Positions 41,043 to 55,442 of a stretch of 64,000 nucleotides of DNA are shown here, piece by piece. The DNA is taken from assembly GCA_030697205.1 (NCBI GenBank), contig JAUYQP010000014.1, positions 1 through 64,000 on the forward strand, given 5' to 3'. The notes below the pieces were generated by a model that saw only the letters and a list, made by a program, of their open reading frames with translations, did no database searches and was not told the DNA's origin. Each line of letters starts with the position of its first letter. Positions within the stretch are counted from its first letter, which is position 1. Source of the DNA: Mycobacteriales bacterium (GTDB taxonomy: Bacteria > Actinomycetota > Actinomycetes > Mycobacteriales > SCTD01). Both the position numbers and the translations under genes were made by a program.

Positions 41043-41069
41043 CTCAAGCCCGTGACCGTCGGTGACGAT
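41043..41069 (+). promoter_or_regulatory. FliA/sigma-28-like promoter motif, Roadblock operon
   Basis: CTCAA (41043-41047), 16-bp spacer, GACGAT (41064-41069). Predicted transcript start near 41076, five bases before the dyad at 41081. Drives the polarity-module genes from 41121. Confidence 0.6.
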
Positions 41070-41080
41070 GGAGTCCTATC

Positions 41081-41103
41081 GGACGGTCAGGGCCTGACCG
41101 TCC
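41081..41103. promoter_or_regulatory. 23-nt perfect dyad in the leader of the Roadblock operon
   Basis: GGACGGTCAGG (41081-41091) and its exact reverse complement (41093-41103) flank one G. The core GACGGTCA also pairs with TGACCGTC at 41053-41060. Position just after the predicted transcript start suits a repressor operator; the tight centre argues against a simple hairpin. Confidence 0.6.
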
Positions 41104-41120
41104 CCGAAGGGAGCCCCCGC

Positions 41121-41684
41121 ATGTCCGACCTGCACTCCGGAAGCCGCTCGGACCGACTCGACAGGGCGATCCACGGGCTGCTCGCGCAGACCCCGGAGAT
41201 CGAGGCCGCCGCGGTGGTGTCCTTCGACGGGCTCCCCATGGCCTCGGCACTGCCCCCGTCGATGGACGAGGACCGCGTCGCCGCGATGAGCGCCGCGCTG
41301 CTCTCGCTCGGTGAGCGCGCTGCCCAGGGCCTCGGCCGCGGTGAGCTGTCCCAGGTCTACATCGAGGGCGACTCCGGCACCGTCTTCCTCATCTCCGCCG
41401 ACGACGAGGCTGTCCTCGTCGCCGTGGCCGCCCAGGGCGCCAAGGTCGGGATGATGCTCTACGAGGTGAAGCGCTGCGCCGCGGCCGTCGCCGAGGTCCT
41501 CCGCGAGGAGGGCACCCAGGCGGAGGAGCCCGAAGTCGCCGCCGTCCCGGCCCAGCCCGAGCCGGTCCTTGCGGCCGTCCCGGACTACTCCGCTCCTCCC
41601 GCGCAGGCCGACGCCGCGGCCGGCTGGTCGTCGTACGCCCCGTCCGGGTCTGTCCTGCCCGGCGAGACCTCGGCCTGGTCCTAG
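41121..41684 (+). CDS. Roadblock/LC7-domain protein (MglB-like)
   Basis: 187 residues. Roadblock/LC7 domain at about 10-120 (IHGLLAQTPEIEAAAVVSFD, VFLISADDEAVLVAVAAQGAKVG), then a Pro/Ala-rich tail. Such proteins regulate small GTPases; the GTPase encoded two genes on and the pilus context suggest an MglB-like GTPase-activating role in pilus polarity. ATG at 41121 with GAAGGGAG upstream. Conservon (Cvn) Roadblock proteins of Streptomyces are the alternative, but no sensor kinase or DUF742 gene accompanies it. Confidence 0.85.
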   Translation: MSDLHSGSRSDRLDRAIHGLLAQTPEIEAAAVVSFDGLPMASALPPSMDEDRVAAMSAALLSLGERAAQGLGRGELSQVYIEGDSGTVFLISADDEAVLVAVAAQGAKVGMMLYEVKRCAAAVAEVLREEGTQAEEPEVAAVPAQPEPVLAAVPDYSAPPAQADAAAGWSSYAPSGSVLPGETSAWS

Positions 41685-41718
41685 CTCGAACCCACCCCCC
41701 TGACCTGACGGGATCGAC

Positions 41719-42804
41719 GTGAGACTCGAGGGAACGCTCGACGCGTTCAGCCTCCCCGACATCTTCCAGCTGCTGAGCTACACGAAGAAGACGGGGACGC
41801 TGCACCTGCGCCGCGACAGCGCGCACGGGGTCGTCCACCTGCGCGACGGTGCCGTCACCGGCGCCCGCTCCGACGTGGCGCGACAGGCCCTCGGCCGCCG
41901 TGTCGTGGGCGCCGGCCTGGTCGACGACGAGAGCCTGGAGAAGGCCGTCGAGGTCGTCTCCGGCGACCCCGCGACCGGCCTCGCCAAGGCGCTGCTCGAC
42001 CTCGGCGCGATCGACGGCGAGCTGCTGCGCGGCCTTGCGGCCGAGCACGCCACCGACTCCGTGTTCGACCTACTTCGCTGGCCCGACGGCGAGTTCGCCT
42101 TCGTCGTCGACGAGACCGACCCCGATGACCTCGGAGCCGCCCTGTCGGTCGAGGACGTCGTCACCGAGGGTCGTCGCCGCCTCGAGACCTGGCCCGAGCT
42201 CACCGTCGCGGTGCCCTCTCCCGACGCGGTCGTGTCCGTCGTCCCGTCTCCCACCGGTGACCCGGCGCTCGCCCGCGACGAGTGGTCGCTGGTGGCCCTC
42301 GTCGACGGTCGACGCAGCGTCGCCGACCTCGTCGTGCTCTCGGGCAAGGGGGAGTACGCCGTCGTCAGCGCGCTCGCCGGTCTGGCCGCGCGCGGGCTCG
42401 TGTCCCTGACCGGTGGCGACGACGCCGTCCTGCGGCGCCAGGCCCTGCTCGCCCAGCTCGAGGGCCTCCCGGCGCCGGTCGCTGCGGCGCCCCCGCAGCC
42501 CCCTGCCGTCATCGAGGCTCCCGTCCAGCGCAAGCCGGTCATCCCGGAGCGCCCCGAGCCCTTCACGCCCGCCCGGCAGCCCGAGCACGTCGAGGAGGTC
42601 CCGGCGTACGTCCGCTCCGCTCCCGAGCCGGTCCACGCCAGCGTGTCGACCCCGCCGCCCTCTGCTCCCGCCGCTACCGTCACCCAGACGGTCGGCTCGA
42701 CGGCCCTTGCCCCCGAGGCCGCCCCGTCGCACCTCATCGAGCGGGATCCCAGCGTCAACAAGAGCCTGCTGCTCCGTCTCATCGCAGGCGTGAGGGGGTT
42801 GTAG
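41719..42804 (+). CDS. DUF4388 (PATAN-like) protein
   Basis: 361 residues. N-terminal DUF4388 domain (LEGTLDAFSLPDIFQLLSYT, KTGTLHLRRD), a domain rich in acidic residues (about 85-150), a winged-helix-like part (about 185-245, LVALVDGRRSVADLVVLSG) and a Pro-rich tail. DUF4388 proteins often accompany two-component or GTPase modules controlling surface motility in other phyla. GTG at 41719. It is followed without gap by the GTPase gene. Confidence 0.85.
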   Translation: MRLEGTLDAFSLPDIFQLLSYTKKTGTLHLRRDSAHGVVHLRDGAVTGARSDVARQALGRRVVGAGLVDDESLEKAVEVVSGDPATGLAKALLDLGAIDGELLRGLAAEHATDSVFDLLRWPDGEFAFVVDETDPDDLGAALSVEDVVTEGRRRLETWPELTVAVPSPDAVVSVVPSPTGDPALARDEWSLVALVDGRRSVADLVVLSGKGEYAVVSALAGLAARGLVSLTGGDDAVLRRQALLAQLEGLPAPVAAAPPQPPAVIEAPVQRKPVIPERPEPFTPARQPEHVEEVPAYVRSAPEPVHASVSTPPPSAPAATVTQTVGSTALAPEAAPSHLIERDPSVNKSLLLRLIAGVRGL

Positions 42805-43389
42805 GTGAGCAGCCGCACTCCGGGCCGCCGCAAGCACGGCGGCACCGCGGTCAAGATCGTCGTCACCGGGCCGTTCTCGGCCGGCAAGACGACCCTGATC
42901 CGCACCATCAGCGAGATCACGGTCCTGTCGACCGAGAAGGACATCACCGACAACACCCGGTCCCGCAAGGCCGAGACGACCGTCGCGATGGACTTCGGCC
43001 GCATCACGATCGACCGCGACCTGGTCCTCTACCTGTTCGGTACGCCCGGTCAGGACCGCTTCGACTTCATGTGGGAGATCCTCGGCGAGGGCATGCTCGG
43101 CTACGTCCTGCTCGTGGACGCGACCCGGCCCGACAGCATCGAGGAAGCCGTCGGCATCCTCGCGGCCTTCCGCAAGATGGCCCGCGTGCCCTTCGTCGTC
43201 GGCCTCAACCGCGCCGCCGGCCTCGACCCCTCCGACGAGGCCCGCGTCCGCGCCGCCCTCGCGCTCGGTGACGAGGTCCCGGTCGTCCCCTGCGACGCCA
43301 CCGACCGCGAGTCGGTCAAGGCCGTCCTGCTCGCGCTGCTCTACTCCGTCGTGGACCAGCTCGACGCCGCCGAGCCCGCCCGCGCCTGA
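42805..43389 (+). CDS. small Ras-like GTPase (MglA/CvnD-type)
   Basis: 194 residues. P-loop GPFSAGKTT (about 22-30), G3 motif GTPGQDRF, and a G4 region VVGLNRA in which the usual NKxD is altered. Effector region around TTVAMDFGRI. This is the actinobacterial MglA-like family also found in Streptomyces conservons. Together with the Roadblock protein it likely forms a polarity switch for the pili. GTG starts right after the DUF4388 stop. Confidence 0.88.
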   Translation: MSSRTPGRRKHGGTAVKIVVTGPFSAGKTTLIRTISEITVLSTEKDITDNTRSRKAETTVAMDFGRITIDRDLVLYLFGTPGQDRFDFMWEILGEGMLGYVLLVDATRPDSIEEAVGILAAFRKMARVPFVVGLNRAAGLDPSDEARVRAALALGDEVPVVPCDATDRESVKAVLLALLYSVVDQLDAAEPARA

Positions 43390-43824: not shown

Positions 43825-45207
43825 GTGATCGACGCCCCTCCTGCGCCCACGGTGGTCGATGCCGTGCCGCGTCCTCGTCCGGCCGCACGAGAGCGGCTCG
43901 GCGACGCTGCTGTCGGTGCCGTGCTTGCCTACTGGGCCACCTACCTGACGTGGGGGACCGGCGGCCGCGAGCCGCACCGACTCTCCTACCTCGCAGCGCT
44001 CGTCCTCGTCGCGTTCGCGGTCGTCCAGCCTTGGCGCTCGGTGAGCCCACGCCTGTTGCTGTGGGCCAACGCGCTGGGTCTCGCGGCGGGCCTGGTGGTC
44101 CTCACCGCTCCGACAGGGCTCGAGGGCCGGGACGAGGCCGCGTCCTACGCGATCGTCGGCCAGCTCGTCGTGCTCGTCGCGGCATGGGCGAAGGACCCGA
44201 TCCGTCGCCTCGCGGTCGTGGCAGCAGTGCTCGTCTTCGGCATCTTGCAGCTCTCGATGGGCTGGCTCGCCTGGTGGGGCGGCGCGGATCCGAGCAACCC
44301 GTTCATCGGCACCTTCTACTGGCACAACCAGGCAGGCATTGCCCTCGCAGCAGCTGCGGTCGCCGCGTACGGCTGCTTGCTGCTGCTCGACGGACCGCTG
44401 CGGACGCTGTCCTGGGTCGTGGCGCCCCTTGCCGCTGCGGGGACGGTCGTGAGCACCAGCCGAGCGTCGATGGGCGGCCTGGTCCTGGGCCTCGTGGTCG
44501 TGCTCGCTCTCGGGGCGTGGCAGCGCGCTTGGCGTGCGTCTGCTCGCGTGTTGGTCGCCGCCGCGGCAGGGTGGGTGACCTCACTGGTCCTCGTCTCTCC
44601 GGTCTTCTTCGCCTCGGCTGACGGGGGCGGCGTGTCGCCGCTCGCCGGGACATCCGCTCGTGGCGCAGCCGAGCCCCTGTCGGGCAACACCGACGCCCGG
44701 CTCTACTCCTGGGACCTGGCGGTCGACGTTTTCCGCGAGTGGCCGCTGACGGGCGCGGGCTTCCACGGCTTCAAGAGCGCGAGCAGCCAGCTGGTGGGCG
44801 AGCCCCAGCAGTTCGCCCACTCCCACAACGGCTTCCTTCAGGCGGCCGCTGACGGCGGCCTCGCCCTCGCGCTGCCGGTGTGGATCGGTGCGCTCGCTTT
44901 CGCGTGGATCGTCCTTCGCCGCGTGGTTCGTGAGGGCAGAGCGCTCGAGCCGGCGCTCTTGGTCGCGCTTCCCGTGCTCGGTCTTCTCGTGCTCCATGCG
45001 GGCATGGACTTCGACTGGAGCTACCCCGCGCTCGCCTGCGCCACCGGCCTCGTCGCGGCGATCTTCCTGACCGCACCGAGTGTCGACGAGTCGACGCACT
45101 CCCGTCGCGCGGGTGCTGCTGTGGCACTTACCCTGCTCGTGCTGGCCGCGGTCGGCGCCTGGGGCGGCGGACTGGACCTCAACGCCACGGTCGGAGGCGG
45201 CGCGTGA
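43825..45207 (+). CDS. O-antigen ligase/polymerase-family membrane protein
   Basis: 460 residues with about 11-12 membrane helices and a large extracytoplasmic loop (about 270-345) holding AHSHNGFLQAAADGG (332 on), the Wzy_C signature of O-antigen ligases and pilin O-glycosyltransferases (PilO/PglL/TfpW classes). Actinobacteria have no LPS, and the gene is fused by a 4-nt overlap to pilB, so glycosylation of pilin or another surface molecule is the best guess. GTG at 43825 lies just behind a FliA-like promoter. Confidence 0.8.
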   Translation: MIDAPPAPTVVDAVPRPRPAARERLGDAAVGAVLAYWATYLTWGTGGREPHRLSYLAALVLVAFAVVQPWRSVSPRLLLWANALGLAAGLVVLTAPTGLEGRDEAASYAIVGQLVVLVAAWAKDPIRRLAVVAAVLVFGILQLSMGWLAWWGGADPSNPFIGTFYWHNQAGIALAAAAVAAYGCLLLLDGPLRTLSWVVAPLAAAGTVVSTSRASMGGLVLGLVVVLALGAWQRAWRASARVLVAAAAGWVTSLVLVSPVFFASADGGGVSPLAGTSARGAAEPLSGNTDARLYSWDLAVDVFREWPLTGAGFHGFKSASSQLVGEPQQFAHSHNGFLQAAADGGLALALPVWIGALAFAWIVLRRVVREGRALEPALLVALPVLGLLVLHAGMDFDWSYPALACATGLVAAIFLTAPSVDESTHSRRAGAAVALTLLVLAAVGAWGGGLDLNATVGGGA

Positions 45208-46871
45208 AGCAGCTCGGCGACATCCTGCTCGAGGGCGGCCACGTCACCCCGGAGCAGCTCGCGGACGCCGTCGAGGAGCAACGCCGGCTCGGTCGCAGCC
45301 TCGGCCGTGTGCTCGTCGACCTCGGGGTGCTCACCGAGGGCCAGCTCGTGGGCGCGCTCGCGACCCAGATCGGGCTGAAGTTCGTCGACCTCTCCGACTA
45401 CCCCGTGGACGGGTCCGCGGTGAGCAGGGTCCCGGACTCGGTCTGCCGGCGCCACAACGCACTGCCGATCGGCTACGAGGACGGCAAGCTCGTCGTCGCG
45501 ATGGCCGACCCGGCCAACGTCTTCGCGATGGACGACATTCGGTCGATGACCGGCATGGAGGTCAAGCCGGTCGTCGCGACCAAGCCCGACGTCCTCGCTG
45601 CGATCAACCGCTACCACCGCGGTGACGCCGAGATGGACGACCTCACGATGGCCCTCGATGCGGGCCAGGACGACGAGGACGACCTCACCAAGGTCAAGGA
45701 GATCGTCGAAGACGCTCCCATCGTCAAGTTCGTCAACCTGCTGATCACCCAGGCGATCCAGGACCGGGCGTCGGACATCCACATCGAGCCCACCGAGCGC
45801 GACCTGCGCGTGCGGTTCCGCATCGACGGCGTACTCCACGAGATCATGCGCTCGCCGAAGACCATCACCTCCGGTGTGACGTCCCGCCTGAAGATCATGG
45901 CGGACATCAACATCGCCGAGCGGCGCATCCCGCAGGACGGCAGGTTGTCGGTCAACGCCAACGGCAAGAAGATCGACCTGCGTGTTGCCACGCTCCCGAC
46001 GGTGTGGGGCGAGAAGGTCGTCATGCGCATCCTGGACAACACGACGGCCATGATGAAGCTGTCGGACCTCGGCTTCGGCGACGAGAACTACGAGGTCTAC
46101 TCGAAGAGCTTCGTCAAGCCCTACGGGATGATCCTCGTGACCGGCCCGACGGGTTCCGGCAAGTCGACGACGCTCTACGCGACGCTCAACATCGTCAGCA
46201 AGCCCGAGGTCAACGTCATCACCGTCGAGGACCCGGTCGAGTACCGCATCCCGGGCATCAACCAGGTGCAGGCCAACCCCAAGGCGGGCCTGACCTTCGC
46301 CGCGGCGCTGCGCTCGATCCTGCGCTCCGACCCCGACATCGTGCTCCTCGGTGAGATCCGCGACCGGGAGACGGCGCACATCGCGATCGAGGCTGCGCTC
46401 ACCGGCCACCTGGTCCTGTCGACCCTGCACACCAACGACGCGCCGTCGGCGATCGTGCGCCTCACCGAGATGGGCATCGAGCCCTTCCTCGTCGGGTCGG
46501 CGCTCGACTGCGTCCTCGCACAGCGCCTCGCCCGCAAGCTGTGCGGCAAGTGCAAGGAGGCCTACGTCCCCACCCGGGAGGCCCTTGCCGAGATGCGCTT
46601 CCCCTGGTCGCCCGACGAGCCGCCGCCGACGCTCTACCGCCCGATCGGCTGCAGTGCCTGCTCCAAGACCGGCTACAAGGGGCGACTGGCCCTGCACGAG
46701 GTCATGGCCGTCAGCGAGGAGATCGAGAAGCTCGCTGTCGAGCACGCCTCCGCGCTCACCATCTCCAAGGTCGCGCTCGAGCAGGGGATGATCACGTTGC
46801 GCAACGACGGCCTGACCAAGGTCAAGGCCGGCCACACGTCGATGGAGGAGATCCTGCGCGTCGTCGTCTGA
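45204..46871 (+). CDS. pilB: type IV pilus extension ATPase PilB
   Basis: 555 residues. N-terminal MshEN-like domain (1-150; repeats such as LGDILLEGGHVTPEQLADAV). Members of this domain family can bind cyclic di-GMP. C-terminal GspE/PilB ATPase: Asp box SDIHIEP, Walker A GPTGSGKST (314-322), Walker B ILLGEIRDRETA, His box STLHTNDAPSAI and a zinc tetracysteine (CGKC near 447, CSAC near 483). GTG overlaps the ligase-like gene by 4 nt. Confidence 0.95.
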   Translation: MKQLGDILLEGGHVTPEQLADAVEEQRRLGRSLGRVLVDLGVLTEGQLVGALATQIGLKFVDLSDYPVDGSAVSRVPDSVCRRHNALPIGYEDGKLVVAMADPANVFAMDDIRSMTGMEVKPVVATKPDVLAAINRYHRGDAEMDDLTMALDAGQDDEDDLTKVKEIVEDAPIVKFVNLLITQAIQDRASDIHIEPTERDLRVRFRIDGVLHEIMRSPKTITSGVTSRLKIMADINIAERRIPQDGRLSVNANGKKIDLRVATLPTVWGEKVVMRILDNTTAMMKLSDLGFGDENYEVYSKSFVKPYGMILVTGPTGSGKSTTLYATLNIVSKPEVNVITVEDPVEYRIPGINQVQANPKAGLTFAAALRSILRSDPDIVLLGEIRDRETAHIAIEAALTGHLVLSTLHTNDAPSAIVRLTEMGIEPFLVGSALDCVLAQRLARKLCGKCKEAYVPTREALAEMRFPWSPDEPPPTLYRPIGCSACSKTGYKGRLALHEVMAVSEEIEKLAVEHASALTISKVALEQGMITLRNDGLTKVKAGHTSMEEILRVVV

Positions 46872-48433: not shown

Positions 48434-49651
48434 ATGGCAACGGCAACGTTCGAGTACAAGGTCCGCGACAAGACCGGGGCGATCAAGACCGGCAAGCTCG
48501 ATGCGGAGTCGCAGGCGCAGGTCGCCAGCAAGCTCAAGGGCATGGGCTACGCCCCCGTGAGCATCACCCAGGCGAACTCCGGCATGTCGAAGGAGATCTC
48601 CTTCGGGCGCAAGAAGAAGGTCAAGCTGCGCGACCTTGCGATCTTCTCCCGTCAGTTCGCGACGATGATCAACAGCGGTCTGAGCCTGCTTCGCGCGCTC
48701 AACATCCTGTGCGAGCAGACCGAGAGCAAGGAGCTCGCCCGCGTACTCGCCGAGGTCCGCAACGAGATCGAGACCGGCAACAGCCTCTCGGCCGCTATGG
48801 CGAAGTTCCCCGACGCGTTCCCGCCGCTCATGGTCAACATGTGCAAGGCCGGTGAGGTCGGTGGCTTCCTCGACTCCGTGCTGCTGCAGATCGCCGAGAA
48901 CTACGAGGCCGAGGTCAAGCTCAAGGGCAAGGTCAAGGCCGCGATGACCTATCCGGTCGTGGTCTTCGTCATGGCCATCCTCATGTGCCTGGTCATGCTC
49001 ATCTTCATCGTGCCGGTCTTCGCGAAGATGTTCGAGAGCCTTGGCAGCACGCTGCCACTGCCCACCCGTGTGCTGGTGATGCTCAGCGGGGTCCTCAAGA
49101 CCGGTGGGCCGATCTTCCTGCTGGGGGGCATCGGTCTGACGGTCTGGTGGGGCAAGGTCAAGCGGACCGAGCGGGCCCGCAACATCGTCGACCCGCTCAA
49201 GCTCAAGGCCCCAGTGTTCGGGCCGCTGTTCCAGAAGATCGCGCTGAGCCGCTTCACCCGCAACCTCGGCACGATGATGAAGAGCGGTGTGCCGATCCTG
49301 CAGAGCCTCGACATCGTCGCGGACACCACCGGCAACGTCGTGCTGGCCCGCGCCATCCGTGACGTCCAGGACAGCGTCCGTCAGGGTGAGTCGCTCACCA
49401 AGCCACTGATGGACCATCCGGTGTTCCCGCCCATGGTCGTGCAGATGATGGCCGTCGGCGAGGACACCGGTGCGCTCGACACCATGCTGCTCAAGATCAG
49501 TGACTTCTACGACCAGGAAGTAGAGGCGACCACTGAGTCGCTCACGGCGCTTATCGAACCCCTCATGATCGCCTTCCTGGGGACCGTGGTCGGCGGCATG
49601 ATCGTGGCGCTGTACATGCCCATCTTCAAGGTCTTCGACCTGATCGAGTAG
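48434..49651 (+). CDS. pilC: type IV pilus inner-membrane platform protein PilC
   Basis: 405 residues with the two T2SSF domains (ATPase-facing; FSRQFATMINSGLSLLRAL and LSRFTRNLGTMMKSGVPIL) and three membrane helices (about 170-190, 220-240, 375-398). GTALYMPIF-type end reads MIVALYMPIFKVFDLIE. ATG at 48434, 13 bases after pilT. Confidence 0.95.
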   Translation: MATATFEYKVRDKTGAIKTGKLDAESQAQVASKLKGMGYAPVSITQANSGMSKEISFGRKKKVKLRDLAIFSRQFATMINSGLSLLRALNILCEQTESKELARVLAEVRNEIETGNSLSAAMAKFPDAFPPLMVNMCKAGEVGGFLDSVLLQIAENYEAEVKLKGKVKAAMTYPVVVFVMAILMCLVMLIFIVPVFAKMFESLGSTLPLPTRVLVMLSGVLKTGGPIFLLGGIGLTVWWGKVKRTERARNIVDPLKLKAPVFGPLFQKIALSRFTRNLGTMMKSGVPILQSLDIVADTTGNVVLARAIRDVQDSVRQGESLTKPLMDHPVFPPMVVQMMAVGEDTGALDTMLLKISDFYDQEVEATTESLTALIEPLMIAFLGTVVGGMIVALYMPIFKVFDLIE

Positions 49652-49668
49652 TTTGCTCGCTCGACGAG

Positions 49669-49729
49669 AGGCGTCGCCCGACAGGGTCGGCGCCTGTCGT
49701 CGTTTCGGCCCGAAAGTTTTTTCTTTCGG
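49669..49729 (+). terminator. terminator region after pilC
   Basis: A bulged hairpin (49669-49695; AGGCG/CGCCT and CCGAC/GTCGG) is followed by TTTCG-GCC-CGAAA (49703-49715) and GTTTTTT, a standard intrinsic terminator. CCGAAAG (49710-49716) can instead pair with CTTTCGG (49723-49729) around the T run. The pilA promoter begins 3 bases later. Confidence 0.75.
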
Positions 49730-49731
49730 AC

Positions 49732-49758
49732 CTCAAGGACCCCCGAAGCCGGCCCGAA
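49732..49758 (+). promoter_or_regulatory. FliA/sigma-28-like promoter motif, pilA
   Basis: CTCAA (49732-49736), 16-bp spacer, CCCGAA (49753-49758). Predicted transcript start near 49765, just before the riboswitch. Confidence 0.65.
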
Positions 49759-49784
49759 GTAGTAGTTGTCATCGAGCCGCACGA

Positions 49785-49862
49785 CCGAGCAAGGGCACAC
49801 CCGCTGTGAGGCGGGGTCGCAAAGCCAGGGGACCCACCGGGTCAGCCCAGCCACCTCGGCCG
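49785..49862 (+). ncRNA. cyclic-di-GMP-I (GEMM-I) riboswitch in the pilA leader
   Basis: The leader matches the GEMM-I pattern. P1: CCGAG (49785-49789) with CTCGG (49855-49859). A GGGCAcACC block (49793-49802 region) leads into P2, a 6-bp stem CCCGCT/GGCGGG (49800-49805, 49810-49815) closed by the GNRA tetraloop GTGA. The junction GTCGCAAAGCC (49816-49826) corresponds to the conserved GACGCAAAGCC. P3: GGG-GACCC/GGGTC-AG-CCC (49828-49848). After it come CCTCC/GGAGG (49865-49878) and a 7-bp stem (49879-49885/49903-49909); no T run, so control is probably not by intrinsic termination. Confidence 0.85.
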
Positions 49863-49942
49863 GACCTCCTCCCGGAGGGCCGCGCAGGGGAACCAGCACC
49901 ACGCGCGGCTCACATCCAGATCAGTCCCGGAAGGACACAGCC

Positions 49943-50350
49943 ATGCTGGCTCGCATTCGTAAGGCCAAGGAGAACGGCGAGGGCGGCTTCACCCTCATCG
50001 AGCTCCTCGTCGTCATCATCATCATCGGCATCCTCGCCGCCATCGCCATCCCGACCTTCCTCAACCAGCGCAAGAAGGGCTGGGACGCGTCGGCAAAGTC
50101 CGCGCTCAAGAACGCCGCGACCGCGCAGGAGTCCTACTTCACGGACGCCTCGACCTACATCGACGACGACGACTTCACCGACAATGTTGGCCTGGACGCC
50201 GAGGGCTTCAACGCCACCAGCACCGTCACGCTGACCACGGTCACCGCGACTGCCGCCGCCTACTGCATGCAGGCGTTCCACACGAGCAACACGACCAACG
50301 TGTGGAAGCTCGACAGCGCCACCGGCTCCCCGGTGCTCGGCACCTGCTAG
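49943..50350 (+). CDS. pilA: major-type IV pilin PilA
   Basis: 135-residue type IVa prepilin. Leader MLARIRKAKENGEGG is cut after Gly15; mature protein starts FTLIELLVV with Glu at +5 and a single hydrophobic helix. The C-terminal part is small, Thr-rich (STVTLTTVTATAAA) and has two cysteines (near 107 and at the end) able to form the D-loop disulfide. ATG at 49943 with GGAAGGA 7 nt upstream. Expression appears subject to a FliA-like promoter and a c-di-GMP riboswitch; an intrinsic terminator follows, so it is monocistronic. Confidence 0.95.
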   Translation: MLARIRKAKENGEGGFTLIELLVVIIIIGILAAIAIPTFLNQRKKGWDASAKSALKNAATAQESYFTDASTYIDDDDFTDNVGLDAEGFNATSTVTLTTVTATAAAYCMQAFHTSNTTNVWKLDSATGSPVLGTC

Positions 50351-50365
50351 TCCAAGCAATGCACG

Positions 50366-50400
50366 AGCGGGGCGGCCTTCGGGTCGCCCCGCTTTTGTGT
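50366..50400 (+). terminator. intrinsic terminator after pilA
   Basis: AGCGGGGCG (50366-50374) pairs with CGCCCCGCT (50385-50393), 10-nt loop, followed by TTTTGTGTT. Confidence 0.88.
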
Positions 50401-50409
50401 TGTCCGGGG

Positions 50410-50436
50410 CTAAACCCGACATGGTGTCGAGCCGAT
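50410..50436 (+). promoter_or_regulatory. FliA/sigma-28-like promoter motif, second pilin
   Basis: CTAAA (50410-50414), 16-bp spacer, GCCGAT (50431-50436). The ATG is 9 bases later and has no ribosome site, indicating a leaderless mRNA. Confidence 0.62.
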
Positions 50437-50445
50437 TCCTAACGC

Positions 50446-50853
50446 ATGCGCCAGCGGGGAGAAGACGACGGATTCACGCTCATCGAGTTGCTGGTCGTCG
50501 TCATCATCATCGGGGTCCTGTCCAGCATTGCGATCCCCTCGTTTCTCAAGCAGCGCGAGAAGGGCTGGAAGTCGGCGGCTGTCAGCGACATGAAGAACGC
50601 CGCTACAGCTGTCGAGACGCTCGCCTCCGCGAACGAGGGTAGCTACCTGGTCGCGAACGGAGCCGATCAGGACTCGGCGTTCCTGCAGGACGAGGGGTTC
50701 AACCCCACGCGGTTTGTGAGCCTGGTCGTTTCGGCGACCAGCTCGAGCTACTGCATCACAGGTGTCACGACGCAGCTGCCCGACAAGACCTTCCAGTTCC
50801 GGAGCACTACGGGTGTCGTCGACATCTCGAACGGCGTCGTGCCGCCCTGCTGA
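50446..50853 (+). CDS. second type IV pilin
   Basis: 135-residue prepilin paralogous to PilA. Leader MRQRGEDDG cut after Gly9; mature FTLIELLVVVIIIGVLSSIA with Glu+5. The two proteins share the N-terminal helix and QR-KGW motif but differ beyond residue 50; this one also has two cysteines (SYCITG and the C-terminal Cys). Alternative or minor pilin. Own FliA-like promoter, apparently leaderless, and not preceded by a riboswitch. Confidence 0.92.
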   Translation: MRQRGEDDGFTLIELLVVVIIIGVLSSIAIPSFLKQREKGWKSAAVSDMKNAATAVETLASANEGSYLVANGADQDSAFLQDEGFNPTRFVSLVVSATSSSYCITGVTTQLPDKTFQFRSTTGVVDISNGVVPPC

Positions 50854-50865
50854 TGGGCCGGTCGG

Positions 50866-50892
50866 CTCAAGACCAGGATCCGTCTGGACGAA
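50866..50892 (+). promoter_or_regulatory. FliA/sigma-28-like promoter motif, minor pilin operon
   Basis: CTCAA (50866-50870), 16-bp spacer, GACGAA (50887-50892). Precedes the PilV-like gene at 50916 (GTG, AGGAGG-like AGGAGGT upstream at 50902-50908). Confidence 0.62.
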
Positions 50893-50915
50893 GCAGATGA
50901 CCAGGAGGTTCCACC

Positions 50916-52553
50916 GTGCTTCGTAGTCCTGCTCCCCGCGAGCATCGCCAGGATGACGACGGGTTCTCACTCGTCGAGACCGTGGTGGCGCTCGGCCTTG
51001 CTGCGACCGTCCTGCTGGGCCTGCTCGGGGCGGGCCTGTTCTCGGTCAAGTCGGCTGTGACCGCGCGGCAGAATGCCTCGGCTGGTGACCTGCTCAACAA
51101 GGCTCTTGAGGACGCACGGAGCCTGGACTTCGCGGCGATCACCATGCGCACGACGGATCTCGGTACGGACCCGCGCATCAGCGCCGGGACCCCGAGGACG
51201 TTCAACCCGGGGACCGGCACGGCAGAAGCAGTCGACGCTCGCGACGTCGGGGCCATCTTCCCGCACATCGCGACGCAGACGACGACCAACGCCACCTACA
51301 CCGTCGCGCGCTACGTGACGCTGCCGCCGGGCACCGTCTTCGACGCCAACGGGCTGCCGAGTGCGCGCCGGCTGTCGGTCATCGTCTCCTGGACCCAGAA
51401 CGGCAAGCTGCGGACGCAGACCACGAGCACGATCTTTACCAAGACGCGCCGTGGTCTGCCGTTGCCCTTCTTCACCTTCGCCTACAACGGTCCCGCCACG
51501 GTCGTCGGCGGCACGGCGACGATCAGCAAGAACCCTGGCAACGACCTCAGCTACGGGCTGCTCGTCCGCAACCAGGGCGCCCGTGACGCGTGGACCATCA
51601 CGTCGAGCACGTCGTCTTTGGGCTGGCGCTACTACATGGACACCGACAAGAACGGCATCTGGTCCGGGGATGCGAGCCCCTCGGGTGAACCGGAACTGTC
51701 GGCCGCCAGCACAGGACTCCTGGAGTCGGGCGCCCTGCCCTTCTACGTCGTGGCGCACCGCGTGATCGGCGCCACCGAGTCGGAAGGGACGACCACGACG
51801 ATCTTCACGGCGACGTCCGAGGCGCAGCCGACCATCCCCGGCAAGAACGTCATCACCTCCCTCATCATCACCAACGGAGCCGTGGTGGTGCCGACGTCCT
51901 CGGCCTCGCCAACCCCCTCGCCGACCGCGGGTGCGACCCCGTGCACGCCCGGCAACAACGTTAACGTGGTGGACGACCTCACCGAGCCGGCGGCTACGCG
52001 CCCCAACGGCAACGCCTACTCGCTGACGGACCTCAACCTCACCAACGGCCCAGGGACGCGAGACTCAACGACCCAGGGCATCGGCACGATGAGCGCTGAG
52101 CGGGGGGCGTTGCAGAGCCAGCTCTGCAACTGGTCCACCGACCAGCAGACCAACCAGGCGGGCCGACTGCTCATCCCCGGCGGCGTGGCGCCGTTCGGCG
52201 TGGCGGAGTGGCGATACAAGGCCCGTTCCAACAACGGTGAGTCCTTCGACGGCACCGCTGTGCTGGTCCTGCACCTGCAGTGCGTCGACCCCTCGGTGAC
52301 GCTGACAGCGTCTGTGTCGTCCGTGGCAAACAACGCCCCGACCCTGCAGAAGTCCGCGACGGCGACGTCGCCGTCGTCCTGCAACGCGGGCGGCTTCCGC
52401 CGGTTGGACATCCCACTGGCCTTCCCCGGTTCGTTCAATGTCGGCACCGGAGCCAACGACTACCTGTCGGTCAAGCTCACCACCTCCGGCAACGTTCGGC
52501 TCGCCCACGGCCTGTCGACCCCGACGTCGCGACTGGTGGTGGCGGTCAAGTGA
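50916..52553 (+). CDS. large minor pilin (PilV-like) with extended C-terminal domain
   Basis: 545 residues. Type III signal: cut after Gly16, mature FSLVETVVALGL with Glu+5. The pilin-like part (to about 190) is followed by a beta-rich region (about 195-325), a Ser/Thr/Pro linker (PTSSASPTPSPTAGATP) and a second globular domain (345-545) with four cysteines. Ordinary PilV proteins are under 200 residues, so this looks like a pilus-tip adhesin. First gene of a three-gene overlapping unit (PilV-, PilW-, PilX-like). Confidence 0.85.
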   Translation: MLRSPAPREHRQDDDGFSLVETVVALGLAATVLLGLLGAGLFSVKSAVTARQNASAGDLLNKALEDARSLDFAAITMRTTDLGTDPRISAGTPRTFNPGTGTAEAVDARDVGAIFPHIATQTTTNATYTVARYVTLPPGTVFDANGLPSARRLSVIVSWTQNGKLRTQTTSTIFTKTRRGLPLPFFTFAYNGPATVVGGTATISKNPGNDLSYGLLVRNQGARDAWTITSSTSSLGWRYYMDTDKNGIWSGDASPSGEPELSAASTGLLESGALPFYVVAHRVIGATESEGTTTTIFTATSEAQPTIPGKNVITSLIITNGAVVVPTSSASPTPSPTAGATPCTPGNNVNVVDDLTEPAATRPNGNAYSLTDLNLTNGPGTRDSTTQGIGTMSAERGALQSQLCNWSTDQQTNQAGRLLIPGGVAPFGVAEWRYKARSNNGESFDGTAVLVLHLQCVDPSVTLTASVSSVANNAPTLQKSATATSPSSCNAGGFRRLDIPLAFPGSFNVGTGANDYLSVKLTTSGNVRLAHGLSTPTSRLVVAVK

Positions 52554-55415: not shown

Positions 55416-55442
55416 CTCAAGCCCGGGGCCGGAGAGTCCGAT
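55416..55442 (+). promoter_or_regulatory. FliA/sigma-28-like promoter motif, pilM operon
   Basis: CTCAA (55416-55420), 16-bp spacer, TCCGAT (55437-55442). Leader to the pilM GTG about 65 bases. Confidence 0.62.

Follow-up and report, generated by a model that had tools for sequence, protein, structure and literature searches.

The window analysed here, that is, the whole 64-kb stretch of DNA, contains a type IV pilus cluster in which Pfam annotation of the ORFs shows a PilB-like ATPase carrying an MshEN domain, another T2SSE ATPase, PilC, PilA, a second pilin, two ORFs that match no Pfam family, a prepilin peptidase, PilM, PilN and PilO. The pilA gene (49943-50350; this gene, its leader and the second pilin gene lie on the + strand) encodes a type IV pilin with an N_methyl domain (PF07963) and a ComP_DUS domain (PF16732) scoring at its cut-off. 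It is preceded by the Shine-Dalgarno region GGAAGGA (49929-49935), located inside a small hairpin (49924-49927/49933-49936) of the predicted minimum-energy fold, and followed by a terminator-like site of 13 pairs with a T-rich tail (50365-50394) and by the gene of the second pilin (50446-50853, PF07963). The MshEN domain, a known c-di-GMP-binding domain, corresponds to a PF05157 match (E = 1.9e-24) in the PilB-like ATPase (45204-46871). By eye, its tandem motifs have kept the LG and the final Q, with the first arginine replaced by Q and S, and motif 1 exhibits an H at position 11; a strict MshEN motif pattern gave no match in PilB. At a short distance upstream of the pilus cluster, a group of Roadblock, DUF4388 and small-GTPase-like genes (41052-43389) resembles a conservon or polarity module.

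The search of both strands of the window against 4227 Rfam families led to a single match at or above the gathering score, the c-di-GMP-I (GEMM-I) aptamer RF01051 at 49784-49858 (+), which covers the full model (1-87) with 44.4 bits (E = 2e-5) for a gathering score of 35 bits. The original prediction, made from the letters alone, had placed a GEMM-I riboswitch directly upstream of pilA, to be checked by a covariance-model search, and had restricted it to the first of the two pilins; the score lies above the family threshold, and in the window-wide search no Rfam family matches the second pilin above its cut-off. No RF01051 match was obtained with the same family search in 14 well-known control genomes. 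The predicted hallmarks could all be located: P2 (49800-49805/49810-49815) with its GTGA loop (49806-49809), the junction hallmark GTCGCAAAGCC, P3 (within 49828-49848) and the closing P1, with its 3' strand at 49853-49859.

The ligand contacts, in the numbering of the Vc2 aptamer, are presumably G20 at 49794, A47 at 49821 and C92 at 49854. Each of the three is present in 15/15 leaders of alignment A3, which comprises 15 of 22 pilA leaders (L058 and L128 were left out of A1 to A3, L017 of A2, and L017, L033, L034, L061 and L123 also of A3). In alignment A4 (29 rows), A47 and C92 are found in 29/29 rows and G20 in 28/29, the remaining row having a gap. P2, P3 and the GCAAAG core are retained in the 15 aligned leaders, in line with the conservation expected among relatives, and P3 exhibits covariation, certain of its pairs being open in certain leaders (n = 15). 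Since every defining feature tested here was found, the element was filed as a c-di-GMP-I riboswitch: the pilA leader looks like a member of RF01051 with predicted ligand binding. In A1 and A3, pilA-type aptamers mostly exhibit the junction GGCACACC with GTCGC; L010 and many non-pilin aptamers exhibit GGCAAACC with GACGC, so that two non-canonical positions appear to have changed together.

The aptamer could alternatively be a GEMM-I variant that senses 3',3'-cGAMP, as described for the pilM riboswitch of Geobacter metallireducens in the accessible part of PMC9262584. However, the mutant said to accept cGAMP too is G20A, according to the accessible part of PMC7288161, which covers A47 and the G20A and G20A/C92U mutants of GEMM-I; G20 and C92 are described as conserved in the portion consulted of PMC9049102. 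In both alignments G20, and never A20, stands in every row with a letter, and cGAMP sensing is thus extremely improbable.

RF01051 was detected above cut-off in 20 of the 24 family genomes. In the order, a match was obtained in 29 of 298 genomes (above cut-off in 28), and 20 of these 29 belong to the same family. Thirteen of the 39 family aptamers that were read stand before PilA, at 72-92 bases from the ATG; one of the 13, L036, runs into a contig end with its pilin start readable. For 24 of the 26 non-PilA aptamers, a candidate ORF begins 9-40 bases downstream, and several of these ORFs have signal-peptide-like starts by eye. The genome itself has a second, sub-threshold c-di-GMP-I match of 31.5 bits (L002, G000:C25:61077-61151, - strand), located 14 bases upstream of a secreted-looking candidate ORF with a signal-peptide-like start; a neighbour of L002 resembles, by eye, a polysaccharide chain-length protein.

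When named genomes were scanned with a pattern, 89 stretches were reported, and the reading of 80 loci (81 aptamers) showed a pilin by motif downstream of 17 of them, all on contigs labelled Actinomycetota; L076 was left out of these pilin leaders because its contig ends, and the same contig, read as L036, shows the pilin start. We also used a model of the whole leader, R1, which was given the aptamer pairs only and matches 41 of 394 class genomes. The 30 R1 loci returned (including our own) come from 30 of these 41 genomes, the matches of the other 11 lying outside the reading, and all stand before a type IV pilin as judged from its N-terminal motif, in 12 families. Three of them repeat by coordinates leaders already in hand (L067, L086 and L095), as probably do L053, L088 and L123. 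One of these pilA leaders, L067, lies on a contig that bears the label of a Bifidobacterium breve MAG, which looks doubtful. At the level of the phylum, 97 of 396 genomes matched R1, all but our own with at most 73.6 bits, the match covering the whole model in some and just its aptamer part in others; 7 of the 29 new loci (L178-L206) precede a pilin by motif, L187, missed by the core pattern, having been left unread.

Upstream of the aptamer lies a sigma28/WhiG-type promoter, CTCAAG-N15-CCCGAAGTA (49732-49761; CTCAAG at 49732-49737, CCCGAAGTA at 49753-49761), so that the aptamer does stand, as had been proposed, between a FliA-like promoter and the pilin start. No sigma70-type site was found in a scan of 49600-51000. 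The promoter resembles the flagellar consensus TAAA / GCCGATAA that WhiG reads according to the accessible part of PMC8325347. By pattern matching without shuffle control, a CTCAAG/CTAAAG ... CCGA element was identified upstream of 20 of the 22 pilA leaders (L088 and L123 had no match, and the stretch printed for L033 is an overlapping one). Among 31 further pilin leaders, the strict pattern matches 15 and the loose pattern 22, for shuffle expectations of 0.03 and 0.43. Transcription probably starts around a conserved GTCATC (49768-49773), as suggested by spacing: in this leader, as in most others, GTCA begins 36 bases after the first base of CTCAAG. Its invariance in A1 is a product of selection, since the A1 leaders were cut to begin at GTCA. 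The strict sigma28 pattern has four matches in the window (46892, 48920, 49732 and 55416) for 0.33 expected, two of them inside coding ORFs; the match at 55416-55442 ends six bases before the first listed pilM start codon. The second pilin has a sigma28-like promoter as well (TAAA-N16-GCCGAT, 50411-50436), and since this near-consensus element ends nine bases before the ATG, the corresponding mRNA may be almost leaderless.

The genome encodes WhiG (286.8 bits for a cut-off of 189.6), the one sigma factor of the FliA/WhiG family above cut-off, in a gene near rnhB-like and comM-like ORFs (named by eye). It also encodes RsiG (PF22802), as an open frame of 229 aa that contains the exact motif E(X)3S(X)2R(X)3Q(X)3D twice. 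Two features of a WhiG/RsiG regulon member were found, a sigma28-type promoter upstream of pilA and, in the genome, WhiG and an RsiG with c-di-GMP motifs. A second RsiG-like frame of 193 aa (L208, G000:C13:211510-211635) carries a single exact c-di-GMP motif. RsiG is present in 39 of the 41 R1-matching class genomes vs 90 of the 353 others, and in all 30 leader-bearing genomes. Among 89 PilC-bearing genomes, it accompanies the leader in 28/28 cases and occurs in 36/61 genomes without it (Fisher p 1.9e-5, uncorrected for kinship and with the leader-positive set being these 30 genomes, so that the 11 other R1-matching genomes, e.g., G324 with a match beside pilC, count as negative).

In other actinobacteria, RsiG loaded with c-di-GMP holds WhiG, as described in the part consulted of PMC8325347. 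Since both proteins are encoded here, the pilA promoter is probably not independent of c-di-GMP. The original prediction of a riboswitch input separate from promoter control stands for the FliA-like promoter itself, but probably not for its independence from the second messenger. By analogy, the action of WhiG and RsiG on the pilA promoter is expected to carry over from Rubrobacter, and c-di-GMP would probably gate the pilin twice, through the RsiG-WhiG promoter and through the riboswitch.

Downstream of the aptamer, the leader can be folded into hairpin I (49865-49878, CCTCC 49865-49869 / GGAGG 49874-49878) and hairpin II (49877-49911, strands 49877-49885 / 49903-49911). Hairpin II is paired in 87.2% of the cells of A3, with four pairs changed on both sides; in A4 the pairing is 67.1% and uneven, and the count of double changes is reached by 363/500 shuffles. 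The two hairpins are arranged like an antiterminator and a terminator, as would suit transcriptional attenuation, in which one of the ligand states would make the leader stop transcription ahead of pilA. Among pilin leaders from other classes, L193 and L202 have by eye a hairpin and a U run after the aptamer, a sign that this aptamer may act through termination in those leaders. In the present leader, however, no U run follows hairpin II, and between aptamer and pilA the scan of 49600-51000 detected nothing like a terminator on the + strand, in agreement with the earlier remark that no T run comes after the aptamer. The scan contains two terminator-like sites (0.9 expected in shuffles), one on the - strand inside pilA and one on the + strand, the stem with a T-rich tail, which stands after pilA instead (50365-50394). 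We consider attenuation unlikely.

The original prediction had proposed that a pyrimidine run (49865-49873) might mask the Shine-Dalgarno sequence directly, the run being complementary to the purine-rich GGAAGGA. This proposal is not supported: in the ligand-free ensemble of the window's own leader, the run forms 0.02 expected pairs with the Shine-Dalgarno sequence vs 4.9 with the local GGAGG, and it is replaced in leader L019. Shine-Dalgarno openness is moreover unchanged when the aptamer is enforced (see below). Masking was rejected on these three grounds and appears very improbable as the mode of control.

A third element is a putative long-range helix, P0, formed by GAGCCGC (49774-49780) and GCGGCTC (49905-49911), the latter located before the ribosome-binding site. 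The five core pairs of P0 are preserved in 14/15 A3 leaders. In A4, an alignment that was not fitted to P0, 8 known or near-identical rows were set aside for this count, and 19 of the remaining 21 rows preserve all five pairs. A C-G pair is replaced by U-A in four leaders from four families (L034, L166, L169 and L171). In A4, 86.2% of the P0 cells pair vs 30-41% when the strands are slid; shuffles average 82.5%, and the observed value is reached by 2/500 of them, the covariation score by 1/500 and the count of double-change pairs by 35/500. The energy of the bare duplex reaches p<0.05 against shuffles in 14 of the 22 first leaders, in 3 of the 24 leaders of a second set (mean z -0.92) and in 3 of 7 leaders from other classes; as a proof of P0 it was rejected as too weak beyond the first leaders. 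By eye, two of the other-class leaders, L180 and L206, can form uninterrupted helices of 9 and 11 pairs with a quite different sequence (p 0.02 and 0.03 for their energies against shuffles). Swapping the 5' and 3' regions among the 22 leaders, many of which are close kin, favoured own partners (permutation p 0.00025), the own partner ranking sixth or lower in about half of them. The same swap among the 7 other-class leaders gave -22.6 for own vs -17.9 for foreign partners, with energies alone significant in 3/7. As judged from these alignments, P0 can pair the 5' end of the mRNA with the region upstream of the ribosome-binding site, at a conserved position and with covariation. Hairpin II and P0 are mutually exclusive, since they share their 3' strand.

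The aptamer itself has a possible competitor, the anti-aptamer helix AP1, in which the P1 3' strand with C92 (49854-49857) would pair with a downstream purine run (49887-49890). Its support from comparison is weak: in A4, AP1 is paired in 65.5% of the cells, with no double change; together with hairpin I the value is 72.9%, vs 70.9% and 60.9% at slides of -2 and +2, and the count of double changes is reached by 392/500 shuffles. We then enforced the aptamer structure in folds of the 22 leaders. The mean cost was 5.4 kcal/mol, which c-di-GMP binding would plausibly pay, and AP1 pairing fell from a mean of 2.4 bp in the free leaders to 0.5 bp; the aptamer may plausibly exchange with the anti-aptamer. 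P0 went from a mean of 7.3 to 6.3 bp and Shine-Dalgarno openness from 0.41 to 0.39. Folding thus makes no output visible, since P0 changes little and Shine-Dalgarno openness not at all. The lack of a clear output would fit a genuine aptamer in a leader that stays unresponsive to cellular c-di-GMP, and a precedent exists in the c-di-GMP-I riboswitch Bc1, which interacts with c-di-GMP while gene expression is unchanged, according to the accessible part of PMC11218506. The contact positions and the leader layout have nevertheless been kept in 12 families of the class, and we consider a silent aptamer quite unlikely.

We favour, with slightly better than even confidence, a transcript from the WhiG promoter that carries a c-di-GMP-I riboswitch acting on mRNA stability or translation. 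This explanation builds on computed parts, i.e., the aptamer, its contact positions, the recurrence in 12 families, the promoter pattern and the presence of WhiG and RsiG; the steps that lead from closure of P1 to the output are those we infer. The transcript from the sigma28-type promoter would begin with the riboswitch leader, and c-di-GMP would close P1 and thereby exclude AP1, which would use C92. The loss of AP1 would shift the balance of hairpins I and II vs P0, the helix that would join the extreme 5' end of the mRNA to the region preceding the ribosome-binding site. The output would then be mRNA stability, with a clamped or exposed 5' end, or translation, rather than intrinsic termination. 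The lack of a terminator and of Shine-Dalgarno masking, together with the presence of P0, points to this mode, either mRNA stability or translation by another route. Since c-di-GMP-loaded RsiG should keep WhiG away from the promoter, we lean slightly towards c-di-GMP lowering pilin at both steps. A riboswitch of opposite sign, which is almost as probable, would give most pilin at intermediate c-di-GMP. More tentatively, the output of the riboswitch may be the mRNA's own 5' end, clamped by P0 or released by the competing hairpin under the influence of the ligand; with RsiG-WhiG and possibly the MshEN domain of the pilus ATPase, a single second messenger would then control this pilin at two or three consecutive steps in this branch of the Actinomycetota, a version that we regard as possible but doubtful.

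The aptamer resembles Vc2 of Vibrio cholerae (RF01051) in its fold, its GNRA-type P2 loop, its GCAAAG core and its G20, A47 and C92. Unlike the RF01051 consensus, P3 here lacks the CUAAG and UAUG stretches, which form the loop receptor. The leader differs from Vc2 in the 72-92 bases between aptamer and ATG, the long-range 5' helix and the pilin gene that follows. A c-di-GMP riboswitch tied to type IV pili is also known in C. difficile (Bordeleau 2015). The C. difficile riboswitch reportedly has an unrelated class II aptamer and a terminator platform. In G. metallireducens, a GEMM-I aptamer likewise precedes the type IV pilus gene pilM, but this riboswitch senses cGAMP, controls transcription through a terminator and belongs to another phylum (PMC9262584, accessible part). 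Sigma28-type promoters on type IV pilus genes, together with RsiG and WhiG, are shared with the known WhiG/RsiG system (PMC8325347), a paper in which the word riboswitch does not occur; the RsiG found here differs in having twin motifs and a single-motif paralogue. Among the matches listed in the open-licence literature, we found no description of a c-di-GMP riboswitch before an actinobacterial pilin, and none is described in the accessible parts of PMC8325347, PMC9262584, PMC7288161, PMC5013675, PMC10519070, PMC6916266, PMC11218506 and PMC9049102.

If our explanation is correct, a main pilin of a broad actinobacterial set (at least 28 of the 89 PilC-bearing genomes sampled in the class) would be under double c-di-GMP control on one transcript, by a sigma/anti-sigma switch and by a riboswitch. 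The two inputs might then strengthen one another, or instead define a range of c-di-GMP in which pili are made.
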